DNA from: Vampirovibrio chlorellavorus
Lineage (GTDB): Bacteria > Cyanobacteriota > Vampirovibrionia > Vampirovibrionales > Vampirovibrionaceae
NCBI RefSeq assembly: GCF_003149375.1
Contig: NZ_QFWH01000004.1
Coordinates: 186,001-250,000, forward strand
DNA length: 64,000 bases
Direction of reading: 5' to 3'
Both the position numbers and the translations under genes were made by a program. Below are positions 1,164 to 7,756 of this stretch, piece by piece. How positions within the stretch are numbered: the stretch's first letter is position 1; every line of letters begins with the position of its first letter. The notes under the pieces are model-generated. The model had not been told where the DNA came from and did no database searches. It saw only the letters and a list, made by a program, of their open reading frames with translations.

Positions 1164-1395
1164 TTTGACTGAAAACGCACTCAGGGCATTTTACTTTGAA
1201 TCATTTTAGCGTGGGCAACCCAATTCGTGGAGAAAAATCATATATCCAGCTTATACAGAATTGCGCCCGGTGAGCGATATTCAGGAAAAACGATGGTAGA
1301 AAAACGGAATCATGCCATCACACTAAAATTAAATACGGTCTGTGGGTCTTTCTTGGTGAGTTATCACGATAATTGTAAGTGGGGTAATCTTGACG

Positions 1396-1614
1396 ATGGA
1401 CAATCCAATCATTCCGCCAATTCAAGCGGCTGAGTTGCCGCCGCAAATACAAGCGCACCTGACAACGCAAGGTCTACCCGGGCAGGATTATTTTGTGGCC
1501 CAGTTTGATACATCCGTGGACTTTGTAGCCGGGGATTTTTCAGCCATGAAGCGCTTACAAGATCCCGCTAAATTTAAAAAAGCCCGATTTAATACCCGAC
1601 TGTACCAAAAGTAG
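1396..1614 (+). CDS. Small hypothetical protein
   Basis: A 72-residue protein, or 74 if the in-frame TTG at 1390 is used. A GGGG stretch at 1381-1384 could serve either start as a weak ribosome site. The sequence is soluble, with no signal peptide or membrane helix, Pro/Gln-rich at the N-terminus (PIIPPIQAAELPPQIQ) and basic at the C-terminus (KFKKARFNTRLYQK). I recognise no family. It stands alone between the divergent PgpH-like gene and a convergent hypothetical gene. A small palindrome (TTATC-AC-GATAA, 1361-1372) lies just upstream and could be an operator. Existence as a gene is likely but not certain. Confidence 0.5.
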   Translation: MDNPIIPPIQAAELPPQIQAHLTTQGLPGQDYFVAQFDTSVDFVAGDFSAMKRLQDPAKFKKARFNTRLYQK

Positions 1615-1667: not shown

Positions 1668-2693
1668 TTAGGCCACCCACTGACGGGTTACAGTGTGGGT
1701 AACGGCTGGTTGCGCCAGAGTGGGTGAGGGTTGTAACAGTTGCTGAGTGACCAGTCTCAATAAATCGGGCCTGTGATAAATCTGCTCAATATAAGCCTGC
1801 TGCTGGCGGTAGGACTGCGTGAGAGCCTGGCTTTCCGGGCGGTGATACAGGTTTCGAAACACGGGCGCTTTAATCGGGCTTCGGTCGCGTTCGTTCTCAG
1901 GCGGCCAACCGGTAAAAACCTGAACCAGCTGATCCAGCTCCGCTTGCGCTGTATTGAATCCGGGGCCTGGTATAGCTCTGGGAGCGGCCAAGTAGCGTAC
2001 TTTTCTGTTGCCCTGCGTGATCCACACTTCATGGGAAGGGGTTGGAGTGTTCAGAGTCGCTTTGGGCAAAATATCGAAGCTGACCAGTTGGGTGAAACGC
2101 TTATAGGCTTGACTGTTGGCGGTGCCAAAACCGAATAAAATACCGTATAGCATGCAATCACCCAGTAGCTCCCGTGGGCTATCTGTTGCCTCAAGTAGTT
2201 TTAATATGGTTTGAGGCGTTGCGTTCGGCCCAAAGCGAGCCCGGAACAGGGGCAGGTTTTTACCGATGACGCCCAGACATGCGGTTCGATTGAGCATCAT
2301 GAGATCGCAGAGGGCAGGATCTTTTTCCAGTGTGTGGTAGAAGGGCTTTACTATTTTTTTGAATACAAAATTGGTATTACCAAACAGCGGTTGGTACTTC
2401 AGGAATGTCAAGGTGTTTTGAAGCAAGTCGGGCATTGGTTTCTCGGTGTTGGTGCCAGCATCGTATTGGTATAGAGCGTGAAGCGTCATGGGTTTATTGC
2501 CAAACAAGGTAAAGCCAAGAGGCTCTCCTCCAGACAATAGAAAATTCTTGAAAAAATGGGCCAATATAACCTGATCCGCCGGGGGGATTTGGGCCAAAAC
2601 CCGATCCGCCGGGCTGGCTTGAGACACGGAAAACACACTGCCCCTGAATAGTGGTTGAACGGGTGTAGACGGTGGGCGTTTTTGACTATTCAC
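1668..2693 (-). CDS. Hypothetical protein, 341 aa
   Basis: A soluble protein of unknown function with no signal peptide or clear membrane helix. The first 25 or so residues are basic and Pro/Ser-rich (MNSQKRPPSTPVQPLFRGSV) and look disordered. A folded, mainly helical part starts near residue 30, with FFKNFLLSGGEPLGFTLFG at about 47-65. The PLFRGSV end of the tail resembles the RFxG motif seen near the N-terminus of other proteins in this window (see findings). It is convergent with the small plus-strand gene ending at 1614. I recognise no domain, so no function is assigned. Confidence 0.75.
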   Translation of the reverse strand: MNSQKRPPSTPVQPLFRGSVFSVSQASPADRVLAQIPPADQVILAHFFKNFLLSGGEPLGFTLFGNKPMTLHALYQYDAGTNTEKPMPDLLQNTLTFLKYQPLFGNTNFVFKKIVKPFYHTLEKDPALCDLMMLNRTACLGVIGKNLPLFRARFGPNATPQTILKLLEATDSPRELLGDCMLYGILFGFGTANSQAYKRFTQLVSFDILPKATLNTPTPSHEVWITQGNRKVRYLAAPRAIPGPGFNTAQAELDQLVQVFTGWPPENERDRSPIKAPVFRNLYHRPESQALTQSYRQQQAYIEQIYHRPDLLRLVTQQLLQPSPTLAQPAVTHTVTRQWVA

Positions 2694-2799: not shown

Positions 2800-2883
2800 T
2801 GGTGGGCGAGAAGGGACTCGAACCCCCACGGATTGCTCCACTAGTTCCTAAGACTAGCGCGTCTACCATTTCGCCACTCGCCC
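2800..2883 (-). tRNA. tRNA-Leu(UAG)
   Basis: Read on the minus strand, the acceptor stem GGGCGAG pairs perfectly with CTCGCCC, followed by discriminator A and an encoded CCA. The anticodon stem CTAGT/ACTAG closes a loop CTTAGGA with anticodon TAG, which reads CUA. The T-arm carries GGTTCGAGTCC. A long variable arm (GTGGAGCAATCCGTG region) marks a class II tRNA, as expected for leucine. It lies between the HNH gene (upstream on this strand) and the 341-aa hypothetical gene. Confidence 0.96.
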
Positions 2884-2955: not shown

Positions 2956-3345
2956 CTATTCCAAAGCGCCGTAAAAATGCTGGTAGAGATGCACCTGAGT
3001 TTGGCAGGCACGGCAACGGTACCAGCCGCAGTTCATTTCAACGCTTCGGCTCTCCAGGCGGCTCTGGCATTGCCAGCATAAAAAGGAGGCTGGCGGAGTG
3101 AGATCCAGAACGCACAAGCGCTCGCTGTGAGACGCTGGCGCCTTGTGCCCTACCTGATGACAGGCGTGGCAAAGTAGCACGATATTGTCCACTTCATCCG
3201 ATCCGCCCAGACTTCGGGGGAGTCGGTGATGGTACTCAAAGCCCTGATGATAGCCCTCTGGGCCTTGCGGCACCTTGTCGCATTGCCTGCAACGCAGGGC
3301 ATCCCGCAGGTTGACCAGAAAGCAGACCCGATTGGACAGGGGCAC
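2956..3345 (-). CDS. HNH endonuclease with C-terminal zinc ribbon
   Basis: A 129-residue protein starting at GTG 3345, with an AGGAGA ribosome site and only 12 nt after the stop of the HerA-like gene, so the two are very likely co-transcribed. The HNH fold is clear: Cys19/Cys22, then EYHHRLPRSLGGSDEVDN with catalytic His39/His40 and Asn54, then Cys59, Cys62, His63 and His67. A second pair of CxxC motifs near the C-terminus (CWQC and CRAC) forms a probable extra zinc ribbon. Such proteins cut DNA with a metal ion. Coupling to a HerA-type ATPase suggests a DNA-processing or defence role, which is inference. It could also be a housekeeping nuclease. Confidence 0.88.
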   Translation of the reverse strand: MPLSNRVCFLVNLRDALRCRQCDKVPQGPEGYHQGFEYHHRLPRSLGGSDEVDNIVLLCHACHQVGHKAPASHSERLCVLDLTPPASFLCWQCQSRLESRSVEMNCGWYRCRACQTQVHLYQHFYGALE

Positions 3346-3357
3346 GGGACAGGTCTC

Positions 3358-4515
3358 CTAGGAACTTTCCAGAATAATCTTTTCCGGGCCCGGTTTGTCC
3401 AGATCGGCCAGGCGGGATTTGCGCAGCGGTTTGGGACTGCTGGTAGCCGGGGTAGAGCCCAGACGTTCAATGACCTTGGTGGCCATGCGCTCTTCTTCTA
3501 AATCTTTGGCCAGCTTTTTGTTTTCCTGCTCCAGCTCTCGAATGACCTGCTTCAGGCGGGCAATTTCCGAATCTTCTTCCCGCTTTTGCACGGTGCGCTT
3601 GTTAATTTCCTGAATGAGGGCCTTCATGGTGTCTTCCATCTGCCCGTCGGCCATGGCGCTAAAGGTTTGCCCGGCTTCCGGGGTGGCCCCGGCGTGCTTG
3701 CAATGCCGCTTGCGAACTTTCAGGATGTGAGTCTCGCCCTTGGCGTAGTAGTAAAACTCGCCGGGTTTCAGGGCTTTAATGGCGGCAAAGGAAATACCCG
3801 CTTCATTCAAAAAGGGCTTGATGGCCTTATAATCCTGCTCGGACTGAATGCCCCCGAACCAGAAGCGGTTGCACTGGCTCAAAATGTCCTTACTCAGGCT
3901 GGCAGGGCGCTGGGTGGCCCACAGGCTATCGATGGCCCGTTTGCGGCCCCGCTTGGCAATTTTTTGGGAGGCCTGCACCGGGTCAATGCTTTTCTTTTTG
4001 CCCCGTTTGGCCGGAGAGCTGCCGCCCGCCATGCGCTGGGGGGCGTAAATCTGCGCTTCTTCCACCACCAGGCGAATTTTGGTGCGGTACTTTTGTTCCG
4101 CCTGAAACAGGCAGTCCACAATCAGGCCGTATAAATGCTGTTGCTCTTCATCCAGATACTCGGATAAATCGAACACCGCCGACAGTCGGTTTTGCAGCAT
4201 GGCTTCTATATAGAGATCGATACCCTCTTCATCCAGCGGCAAGCTGCCGTGTTCTCCGCCAATAATCAGCATGGGGTAGCGTTCAGCCAGGGTGAAATGC
4301 TCACCTTCCGGGTCAATGACCAGCACCAGACAGCCATTTTCCAGGGTTTCTTCCAGTAAAACCCCGGTTAAGTAGGATTTCCCCATGCCAGAGGAGGCCA
4401 GAATGGCGTCCCGCTCGCCGGTAGTGGCAAAGCTGTCCAGCGGGATGCTGAAGTTCTTGGAAACCTGTAACGCTCTCTGTCCGGGGATGATTTGATTTTT
4501 CAAAAATCGGAACAT
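3358..4515 (-). CDS. HerA/VirB4-like P-loop ATPase (DUF87 type)
   Basis: Numbered from ATG 4515, the 385-residue protein has Walker A ASSGMGKS (about 40-47), Walker B/DPEGEH (68-72), a second acidic strand LVVEEAQ (149-155) and the ATQRP motif (200-204), as in HerA/FtsK-superfamily DNA translocases. Only about 40 residues precede Walker A, so the usual HAS beta-barrel of HerA is missing. The C-terminal 100 residues are highly charged and predicted coiled coil, ending in a basic tail. An upstream in-frame TTG at 4533 exists, but a consensus -10 box lies between it and the ATG, so ATG 4515 is preferred and the message may be leaderless. It is followed 12 nt later by an HNH nuclease gene. Confidence 0.85.
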   Translation of the reverse strand: MFRFLKNQIIPGQRALQVSKNFSIPLDSFATTGERDAILASSGMGKSYLTGVLLEETLENGCLVLVIDPEGEHFTLAERYPMLIIGGEHGSLPLDEEGIDLYIEAMLQNRLSAVFDLSEYLDEEQQHLYGLIVDCLFQAEQKYRTKIRLVVEEAQIYAPQRMAGGSSPAKRGKKKSIDPVQASQKIAKRGRKRAIDSLWATQRPASLSKDILSQCNRFWFGGIQSEQDYKAIKPFLNEAGISFAAIKALKPGEFYYYAKGETHILKVRKRHCKHAGATPEAGQTFSAMADGQMEDTMKALIQEINKRTVQKREEDSEIARLKQVIRELEQENKKLAKDLEEERMATKVIERLGSTPATSSPKPLRKSRLADLDKPGPEKIILESS

Positions 4516-4521
4516 AGGGTC

Positions 4522-4550
4522 ATTATAGGTCAAACGGGTGTCACTGTGCA
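4522..4550 (-). promoter_or_regulatory. Promoter of the HerA-like/HNH pair, probably leaderless
   Basis: On the minus strand, TGCACA (4550-4545), a 17-nt spacer and a perfect TATAAT (4527-4522) stand just 6 nt before ATG 4515. Transcription would be expected to start at or within 1-2 nt of the A of the start codon. No Shine-Dalgarno sequence is present. Confidence 0.6.
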
Positions 4551-5068: not shown

Positions 5069-5938
5069 GTGGCTACAACTGCAACGAGAAATCAGGGGAC
5101 CGATCGCGTCGATGGGTGGCAAGTTGAGCCCATACTGGCCGGTCTGGCTCTGGTCGTTTTTATTATTTACGCGACTTTCCGGGCATTGCAAAATGACCCC
5201 AGCCAATTCCCCGGCACTCACTATATCTCTCCCCTCTACACGCCGTATTTGCCGCATTGGGCTGAAATGTTCGGCTTGCACCTTCCCTTTCTGGAAAAAG
5301 TTCCTGGCAATGGCAATATGGGCTGGATTTTGTCTCCGGCCTTGTTCATTTTGTGGGTGCCTGCCGGTTTCCGGGCCACCTGCTATTTCTACCGCCGGGT
5401 CTACTACCGTTCCTTATTCACGGCCCCGGCTGCCTGCGCCGTGGATGTGAACCCCAAAAGTCCCCTGATTGCCCTGTTGGGCAGTGGCAAAAAGTACATG
5501 GGCGAAAAAGCGTTGCCCATGGTGCTGATGAACTTGCACCGCTACTTTTTCTATCTGGCGGCGGCTTTCATTGGCCTGCACTCCATTGACGTGATTTGCT
5601 CCTACTTCAGCCCCGGCTTTACTGGCCTGCGGCTGGGTGTGGGGAGTCTGATCATCACGCTGGATGTGGTCTTGCTGTCCCTGTACGTGTTTAGTTGCCA
5701 CTCCTGGCGGCATATTCTCGGTGGGCAGATCGACTGCTTCTCTTCTTGTCCCATCAACGAGGCCCGTGGCCACGCTTTCCAGCGCCAGAGCATCCTGAAC
5801 GCCAAGCACGGTCTGTTTGGCTGGATTAGCTTGGGCTTTGTGATTGTGGCGGACATTTATTTAACCGCATTGTCCCGTGGTATCATTCCGGCCAACTTTG
5901 ACCGGATTTTTGAATTTTCTTGGAAAGGTATGTTCTAG
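5069..5938 (+). CDS. sdhC: Succinate dehydrogenase/fumarate reductase membrane anchor subunit
   Basis: A 289-residue membrane protein starting at GTG 5069. About five hydrophobic helices are visible, starting with ILAGLALVVFIIYATF (about 22-37). Conserved stretches such as FRATCYFYRRVYYRS, NLHRYFFYLA and CHSWRHILGG provide several His residues that could ligate haem. The pattern resembles the single large anchor of the mycobacterial Sdh1 type rather than the split SdhC/SdhD of E. coli; this comparison is from memory. It anchors the flavoprotein and iron-sulfur subunits in the membrane and passes electrons to or from quinone. Its stop codon is immediately followed by the sdhA ATG. Confidence 0.85.
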   Translation: MATTATRNQGTDRVDGWQVEPILAGLALVVFIIYATFRALQNDPSQFPGTHYISPLYTPYLPHWAEMFGLHLPFLEKVPGNGNMGWILSPALFILWVPAGFRATCYFYRRVYYRSLFTAPAACAVDVNPKSPLIALLGSGKKYMGEKALPMVLMNLHRYFFYLAAAFIGLHSIDVICSYFSPGFTGLRLGVGSLIITLDVVLLSLYVFSCHSWRHILGGQIDCFSSCPINEARGHAFQRQSILNAKHGLFGWISLGFVIVADIYLTALSRGIIPANFDRIFEFSWKGMF

Positions 5939-7756
5939 ATGAGCGTGACTTATGAAACACACACGCACGACGTGCTGGTCATTGGGGCCGGTGGTGCCGG
6001 TCTGCGTGCCGCAATTGAAGTATCGGCCCAAGGCTTGTCCGTGGGACTGGTCTGCAAGTCCCTGTTGGGCAAAGCCCACACCGTAATGGCTGAAGGGGGT
6101 GCCGCCGCCGCACTGGGGAACGTTGATCCGCAAGATGGCTGGCAAACCCACTTCAAGGACACCATGAAGGGTGGCAAGTTCATGAACAATTGGCGTATGG
6201 CTGAGCTGCACGCCAAGCAAGCCCCCGATCGCATCAACGAGTTGCAGCAATGGGGCGCTGTGTTCGATCGTACCAAGGATGGCAAAATCAGCCAGCGGGC
6301 TTTTGGGGGACACACCTACAAGCGTCTGGCCCACGTGGGTGACCGTACCGGTTTGGAAATGATTCGCACCCTGCAAGACAAGGGCGTTCACTCCGGCATT
6401 GATGTGTACATGGAATGCACCGTCAGCCAGTTGCTAAAAGATGGCGATGGCCGGGTCAACGGTGCCTTTGGCTACTGGCGTGAAAGCGGCCGCTTTGTGG
6501 TGTTCAACGCCAAGGCGGTCATTCTGGCCACTGGCGGGACTGGCAAAGCCTGGAAAATCACTTCCAACTCCTGGGAATACACCGGCGACGGCCAGACACT
6601 GGCCTATGACGCCGGCGCCGATCTGCTGGATATGGAGTTCATTCAGTTCCACCCCACCGGGATGGTCTGGCCGCCTGGCGTCCGGGGTATTCTGGTCACC
6701 GAAGGGGTTCGCGGCGAAGGCGGTATTCTGCGGAACAAGGATGGCAAGCGCTTTATGTTTGACTACCTGCCTCCAGAGACCAAGCACACCTTTGCCGAAA
6801 CCGAGGAAGAGTGCGAGCGCTGGGTGAAGGCCACGTTGGCCAACGAGCAAACCGATGCCCGTCGTCCACCCGAACTGTCCACCCGGGATAACGTGGCCAA
6901 GGCCATTTACTACGAAGTACAGGCCGGTCGTGGAAGCCCACACGGTGGCGTGTTCCTGGATATCAGCTATCAGGACGCCGACCGCATCAAGCGTAAGTTG
7001 CCCAGCATGTACCACCAGTTCAAAGAGCTGGCCGATGTGGACATTACCAAGCAGCCCATGGAAGTGGGCCCCACCATGCACTACACCATGGGCGGCATTC
7101 GGGTGAATCCTGAAACCCAAATGACCGCTGTGCCCGGCTTGTTCGCCGCGGGCGAATGCGCCGCGGGTCTGCACGGGGCCAACCGGTTGGGTGGCAACTC
7201 CCTGTCGGATCTGGTGGTGTTTGGCCGTTTGGCCGGTCTCGGTGCCGTGGAGTTCGCTAAGTCCGTGGAAGGAACGCCCAAGGCTGATGAAGCGCAGGTG
7301 AAAGCCGCCGCTCAGGAATTGCTGGCGCCGTTTGAACGCACCGGTGAAGGCCCTTATGAAGTTCACCGTGATCTGCAAGAAGTGATGCAGCATAAGGTGG
7401 GCATTATGCGCACGGAAGAAGATCTACAGAAAGCCCTGGTAGAATTGGATGCCATTGAGCAGCGGGTGGCCAAGGTCTCCGTGGAAGGCTCGATTCAGTT
7501 CAACCCCGGCTGGCACTTGGCCCAGGATCTGAAGAACATGATCGTGGTTTCCAAAGCGGTGGCCAAATGCGCGCTGGAGCGTCGTGAAAGCCGTGGCGGC
7601 CACACCCGTGTGGATTTCCCCAATTACGATGAAAAACTGGCCAATGTTAACGCCCTCATCCGCAAGGGAGAGGACGGCAGCATGCAATATCGCACCGAGG
7701 CCACGCCGGAAATGCCCCCTGAACTGAAGAAGCTCTTTGAGGAGGAGAAAAAGTAA
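5939..7756 (+). CDS. sdhA: Succinate dehydrogenase/fumarate reductase flavoprotein subunit
   Basis: A 605-residue FAD protein of usual family length. The N-terminal dinucleotide fold is VIGAGGAGLRAA (14-25). KAHTVMAEGG (45-54) carries His47, the expected covalent FAD ligand. The active-site region shows QFHPTGMVWPPGVRG, then EGVRGEGGILRN, and the C-terminal FAD domain GLHGANRLGGNSLSDLVVFG. It oxidises succinate to fumarate or runs the reverse reaction; sequence alone does not decide the direction. It is the middle gene of the operon, starting directly after the anchor gene and overlapping the iron-sulfur subunit gene by 1 nt (TAATG). Confidence 0.96.
   Translation: MSVTYETHTHDVLVIGAGGAGLRAAIEVSAQGLSVGLVCKSLLGKAHTVMAEGGAAAALGNVDPQDGWQTHFKDTMKGGKFMNNWRMAELHAKQAPDRINELQQWGAVFDRTKDGKISQRAFGGHTYKRLAHVGDRTGLEMIRTLQDKGVHSGIDVYMECTVSQLLKDGDGRVNGAFGYWRESGRFVVFNAKAVILATGGTGKAWKITSNSWEYTGDGQTLAYDAGADLLDMEFIQFHPTGMVWPPGVRGILVTEGVRGEGGILRNKDGKRFMFDYLPPETKHTFAETEEECERWVKATLANEQTDARRPPELSTRDNVAKAIYYEVQAGRGSPHGGVFLDISYQDADRIKRKLPSMYHQFKELADVDITKQPMEVGPTMHYTMGGIRVNPETQMTAVPGLFAAGECAAGLHGANRLGGNSLSDLVVFGRLAGLGAVEFAKSVEGTPKADEAQVKAAAQELLAPFERTGEGPYEVHRDLQEVMQHKVGIMRTEEDLQKALVELDAIEQRVAKVSVEGSIQFNPGWHLAQDLKNMIVVSKAVAKCALERRESRGGHTRVDFPNYDEKLANVNALIRKGEDGSMQYRTEATPEMPPELKKLFEEEKK

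Follow-up and report, generated by a model that had tools for sequence, protein, structure and literature searches.

HerA-type motors have been studied mostly as partners of nucleases that dock on their HAS barrel. Canonical representatives, which are NurA-associated or anti-phage proteins (NCBIfam NF042943 and NF040819), combine this barrel with a RecA-like DUF87 motor core and a helix-bundle insertion. The docking surface is described in passages of two reports, one in which NurA docks on the HAS barrel of HerA (PMC9960219) and one in which DUF4297 docks on the HAS of HerA (PMC11291478).

The stretch of DNA analysed here (termed the window) comprises 64,000 nucleotides of Vampirovibrio chlorellavorus, positions 186,001 to 250,000 of contig NZ_QFWH01000004.1. 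The species belongs to the Vampirovibrionales, an order of non-photosynthetic relatives of cyanobacteria. A preliminary description of the window had pointed to a HerA-like ATPase gene without a HAS barrel that is followed by an HNH nuclease gene, and had proposed that the two form an uncharacterised DNA-processing or anti-phage module. A HAS-less HerA of the Vampirovibrionales goes unmentioned in the titles, abstracts and selected passages of the literature searched on HerA, FtsK, DUF87, MADS and Vampirovibrio. The features of the locus are as follows.

4516-4527, minus strand: candidate leaderless promoter, a -10 box TATAAT located six bases upstream of the ATPase start codon (ortholog comparison)
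3358-4515, minus strand: HerA/DUF87 ATPase gene without HAS barrel or helix bundle; ATG at 4515, 385 aa (Pfam, predicted model, motif spacing, order-wide alignment)
ATPase residues 40-47: Walker A, ASSGMGKS
ATPase residues 149-155: Walker B, LVVEEAQ
ATPase residues 200-204: ATQRP motif
ATPase residues 291-352: C-terminal helix/coiled coil (a single 62-residue helix in the predicted model)
2956-3345, minus strand: HNH endonuclease gene with a C-terminal four-Cys zinc ribbon; GTG start, 129 aa (Pfam)
2800-2883, minus strand: tRNA-Leu (tag) gene (ARAGORN)

A HerA-type motor core without the HAS barrel

The ATPase gene is present in a single copy in the window's genome. Residues 26-179 of its product match DUF87, the HerA central domain, in Pfam (E 3.3e-14; 54 bits compared with a cut-off of 23.2). 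The protein has the ASCE P-loop core, Walker A, Walker B and QRP motif of the HerA/FtsK (DUF87) superfamily, and the Walker A, Walker B and ATQRPAS-K-ILSQCN motifs are invariant across a 13-row ATPase alignment. Three features of canonical HerA are absent, namely the HAS barrel, the helix-bundle insertion and, from the 18 order genomes, the partner NurA. Specifically, only 39 residues lie ahead of Walker A (38-50 among the 16 core orthologues), compared with 158-179 in five canonical HerAs from sister families. In 16/16 core orthologues, 109 residues separate the two Walker motifs; the canonical HerA spacings of 235 and 271 come from the two of the five HerAs in which the pattern caught both motifs.

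The AlphaFold model of the ATPase (pLDDT 78.9) contains no helices matching the HerA helix bundle. Residues 10-287 of the model superpose on HerA structures (best Z 27.6 over 246 residues, rmsd 2.5), and the structural alignment starts only at HerA residue ~108-152, where the HAS barrel ends. These results bear out the preliminary description, which had placed the start of the motor core about 40 residues in, without a HAS barrel, and had read a coiled coil at the C terminus.

We rejected the TTG at 4533, the mechanically assigned start of the open reading frame, because homology and the -10 box favour the ATG at 4515. Eleven of the 16 core orthologues carry an exact TATAAT 6-8 nt upstream of the start codon, and two more carry TATACT there (13/16); as background, TATAAT is found 4-8 nt upstream of 6 of the 6375 NTG triplets in the whole window. 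The box is retained across three families within the order and is missing in three family-f1 genera. Since a -10 box located 6-8 nt before the ATG predicts a message without a leader, this arrangement suggests that the ATPase mRNA is leaderless.

Comparison with described systems indicates that the ATPase is a variant within the HerA/FtsK superfamily. Its motor core with Walker A/B and QRP aligns with that of canonical HerA (VIA-align Z 24-27.6 over ~245-256 residues), but the C-terminal coiled coil sets it apart, as do the missing parts described above, and it scores 35-42 bits against the NCBIfam HerA equivalogs, whose cut-offs are 800-970. In PADLOC, several HerA profiles and the MADS profile mad8 (PDLC04140) match the ATPase, with a best E of 8.3e-18. 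Mad8 is a HAS-less DUF87 protein of similar size, and its profile spans nearly the whole motor (E 3e-14); however, other HerA profiles outscore it. Membership of MADS was rejected on finding no other mad gene among 12 neighbouring window proteins. The DNA-packaging ATPase B204 of STIV/STIV2 likewise has a compact core without a HAS barrel (Z 19-21), but is only 14-16% identical to the ATPase and has a virus packaging role.

The HAS barrel is also lacking in small DUF87 ATPases of phages, of halophilic-archaeal and actinobacterial plasmids and of Micrarchaeota, which are 24-31% identical to the ATPase. Walker A is preceded by 24-62 residues in six plasmid or phage rows, three Micrarchaeota rows and a paralogue described below. 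The plasmid, phage and Micrarchaeota proteins are 516-622 aa in length and have a long C-terminal region, whereas the Vampirovibrionales ATPases are 367-452 aa and end in the coiled coil.

Distribution and ancestry of the ATPase gene

A search of 58 genomes of relatives gave matches in 23 of them at E <= 0.001. The ATPase is present in 16 of the 18 Vampirovibrionales genomes (E 2.6e-142 or better), including all 12 with completeness of 90% or more and contamination of no more than 5%; completeness is 78% and 81% in the two order genomes without a match. Seven members of the class outside the order yielded weak matches only (E 1e-7 to 1e-5), and the open frames behind these are mostly canonical HerAs (557-577 aa where read). 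When 292 genomes were drawn evenly from the phylum, a single one matched at E <= 1e-20, namely the window's own. A scan of genome contigs with two short peptide patterns, which says nothing on absence elsewhere, again recovered these 15 order relatives, along with the G001 paralogue and four loci from Micrarchaeota. The ATPase gene belongs to the core set of the order and evolves under purifying selection, with dN/dS values of 0.005-0.009 in the closest trio of genomes and 0.06-0.09 across the genus.

In a tree of 32 ATPase rows, the core clade splits along families f1, f2 and f3, as expected under vertical descent. Closest to it on the outside are a gene on a viral contig (L077, IMGVR_UViG_3300017605_000781, 5884-6873) and a second gene of genome G001 (the paralogue, L072). 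Proteins from phages, plasmids and Micrarchaeota branch further out, between canonical HerA and the core clade. Support is only moderate for the branches linking the viral contig to the core (88/99, 80/75), and long-branch joins were flagged. Over the motor, the viral protein (330 aa) is 56% identical to the ATPase and the paralogue (336 aa) 50-53%; both resemble it in this part, but neither has the coiled coil. Judged by sequence, the ATPase is related to mobile-element DUF87 ATPases and looks like a DNA pump of mobile-element type turned core gene of the order; transfer may have run from phage to host or from host to phage.

The viral gene is surrounded by an early-type region with RecT-like and integrase genes, in which one further gene reads, by eye, like a DNA cytosine methylase. 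The second, coiled-coil-less ATPase copy of G001, on contig C20 (L052, 897-1904), lies near the contig end with phage-type genes close by.

The HNH gene as a lineage-specific neighbour

The ATPase and HNH genes are on the same strand and are separated by 12 nt (3346-3357). The start codon of the HNH gene is preceded by the Shine-Dalgarno-like sequence AGGAG, and the gene is probably transcribed by read-through from the ATPase gene. The tRNA-Leu gene lies 72 nt beyond its stop codon. The HNH protein matches the HNH domain PF01844 (E 1.4e-7, Pfam) and, below the curated cut-off, the double zinc ribbon PF12773 (E 8e-4). Thus, a nuclease with an extra zinc ribbon and an adjacent tRNA gene, both noted previously, are indeed present. 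A predicted model of the HNH protein, built from three sequences, has a pLDDT of 44, which is too low for use.

The close spacing of the two genes is what would be expected if their products formed a two-gene module for DNA processing or phage defence, and nuclease pairing of HerA ATPases in defence systems is described in passages of PMC11291478. Moreover, three genomes preserve the pair, and the catalytic residues and zinc-ribbon cysteines are retained in all three HNH copies, whose dN/dS of 0.19-0.24 across the trio indicates that the HNH gene itself is under selection. The neighbourhood survey that the preliminary description had called for nevertheless speaks against a module. The HNH gene adjoins the ATPase gene only in G000, G002 and G004, or 3 of the 15 loci whose 3' side is visible; the ATPase of G016, located at a contig end with its downstream neighbour out of view, is left out of the 15 and counted in the 16 carriers. 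The congeneric genomes G001 and G003 have no HNH gene at this locus, and tRNA-Leu comes next after the ATPase gene, at distances of 76 and ~90 nt. In G014, an HNH gene with 52% identity is found at the end of another contig, away from the ATPase of that genome. Furthermore, the dN/dS values of the ATPase and HNH genes are 20- to 40-fold apart.

The suggested association with defence genes likewise failed to appear. None of the 12 neighbouring window proteins matches PADLOC, whether at E <= 0.001 (the ten on the succinate/fumarate-oxidoreductase side) or at E <= 0.1 (the two nearer the ATPase). By Pfam, the neighbours in the window are metabolic enzymes, transporters and alanine racemase. A defence system should exhibit conserved pairing of ATPase and nuclease, and a patchy distribution together with a defence island; what we observed is pairing in 3 of 15 loci, presence in 16 of 18 genomes and a vertical tree. 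A two-gene system of the proposed kind is therefore very unlikely, and the candidate defence module can be struck off. The preliminary description had also considered that the pair might prove universal in the phylum. Universality holds for the ATPase within the order, but it extends neither to the pair nor, given the single match among the sampled genomes, to the phylum.

Because the HNH gene occupies so few of the loci, is absent from two congeners and differs from the ATPase gene in dN/dS, it appears to be a selected yet recent, separately evolving and lineage-specific neighbour. In one sub-lineage of this genus, it was probably inserted later between the ATPase and tRNA-Leu genes; it is probably not the partner of the ATPase. 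No match to the HNH protein was found among plasmids; 26 phage records match, through a homing-endonuclease-type HNH core only, at 33% coverage among the matches listed.

The tRNA gene was also considered as the integration site of a mobile island carrying both genes. This possibility was rejected since tRNA-Leu flanks the ATPase in 5/5 genomes of the genus, with HNH between them or not, and the ATPase is therefore not an island gene. The far side of tRNA-Leu is a variable flank with fast-evolving genes. Two genes located there, 1668-2693 (minus strand) and 1390-1614 (plus strand), occur among the compared loci only in the three HNH genomes, and the former has no Pfam match and a dN/dS of 0.35-0.44.

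Possible roles of the motor in the cell

The reading that we favour, with a probability of about 0.6, is that the ATPase is a minimal, stand-alone hexameric dsDNA translocase of the HerA/FtsK superfamily, which was recruited before the order diversified, is inherited vertically as a single-copy housekeeping gene and does not have the HNH protein as its partner. From what is known of the family, the bare motor core would most likely assemble into a hexameric ring and, using ATP, would move dsDNA through the pore. Because the HAS barrel that serves NurA and DUF4297 as a docking surface is missing, the ATPase should be unable to recruit a nuclease as HerA does; the conserved C-terminal coiled coil probably replaces the barrel as a docking or oligomerisation arm. 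The gene was probably taken from the phage and plasmid DUF87 radiation and would now be transcribed independently. Leading options for the process it serves would be the processing of recombination intermediates or chromosome handling. That a motor without barrel, helix bundle and NurA is yet a core gene of an order implies that the bare core can be retained for a housekeeping job, and the locus would exemplify the apparent recruitment of a mobile-element-type DNA pump by cells.

A role closer to that of HerA, in which the ATPase drives DNA-end resection with an unlinked nuclease in place of NurA, is possible but unlikely. The nearest solved folds to the ATPase are HerA motors, and AddB/RecB-type PDDEXK_1 nuclease domains are found in 18/18 order genomes. 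However, the ATPase lacks the barrel that holds NurA, NurA itself was detected in 0/18 order genomes (control genomes were positive), and the large open reading frames with PDDEXK_1 suggest that an ordinary AddAB-type resection machine is already in place.

A role in chromosome segregation in bacteria without FtsK is retained only as a rival reading that we consider improbable. Consistent with such a role, FtsK_gamma is found in 0/18 order genomes, the set to which this search was confined, and FtsK_SpoIIIE is unmatched in the window's genome. In 10 of the 16 carrier genomes, moreover, the ATPase is the sole match above cut-off to DUF87, T4SS-DNA_transf or FtsK_SpoIIIE. In contrast, sister families such as f6 and f8 have neither an FtsK_SpoIIIE match at E <= 0.001 nor this ATPase, so that the absence of FtsK predates the ATPase gene and does not require it. 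The protein also carries no membrane anchor and no gamma domain. FtsK_SpoIIIE has no convincing match in most sister families, and the bacteria of the order and of most of these families may, on such profile searches, be without any FtsK.

A bolder form of the favoured reading, speculative and rather unlikely, holds that a single recruitment of a mobile-element pump took place at the root of the order and that this pump, having gained a coiled-coil arm where HerA has its HAS barrel, would have become the general dsDNA translocase of cells with neither FtsK nor HerA-NurA, with a role in segregating chromosomes or in the clearance of DNA intermediates.

The ATPase might instead belong to the conjugation or secretion machinery proposed for Vampirovibrio predation, since use of a conjugative type IV secretion system (T4SS) by V. 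chlorellavorus is reported in passages of PMC4451040, and the ATPase has a fold similar to those of VirB4 and TrwB (Z 18-24). This reading was rejected on co-occurrence: a VirD4-type coupling protein exceeds the cut-off in 3/18 order genomes, the window's own not among them, compared with 16/18 for the ATPase. It is largely refuted and scarcely tenable.

In other families, the genes flanking the ATPase vary from genome to genome, and no gene neighbour is conserved where genes were called mechanically as the longest non-overlapping open reading frames. Twenty such flanking genes were sampled; they include an Mrr_cat gene beside the ATPase of L043 and a D12 adenine methylase gene beside that of L046, which are weak evidence for a link of the ATPase to DNA modification. 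In G007, a tmRNA gene (L041, 7741-8160) lies ~0.7 kb from the ATPase gene.
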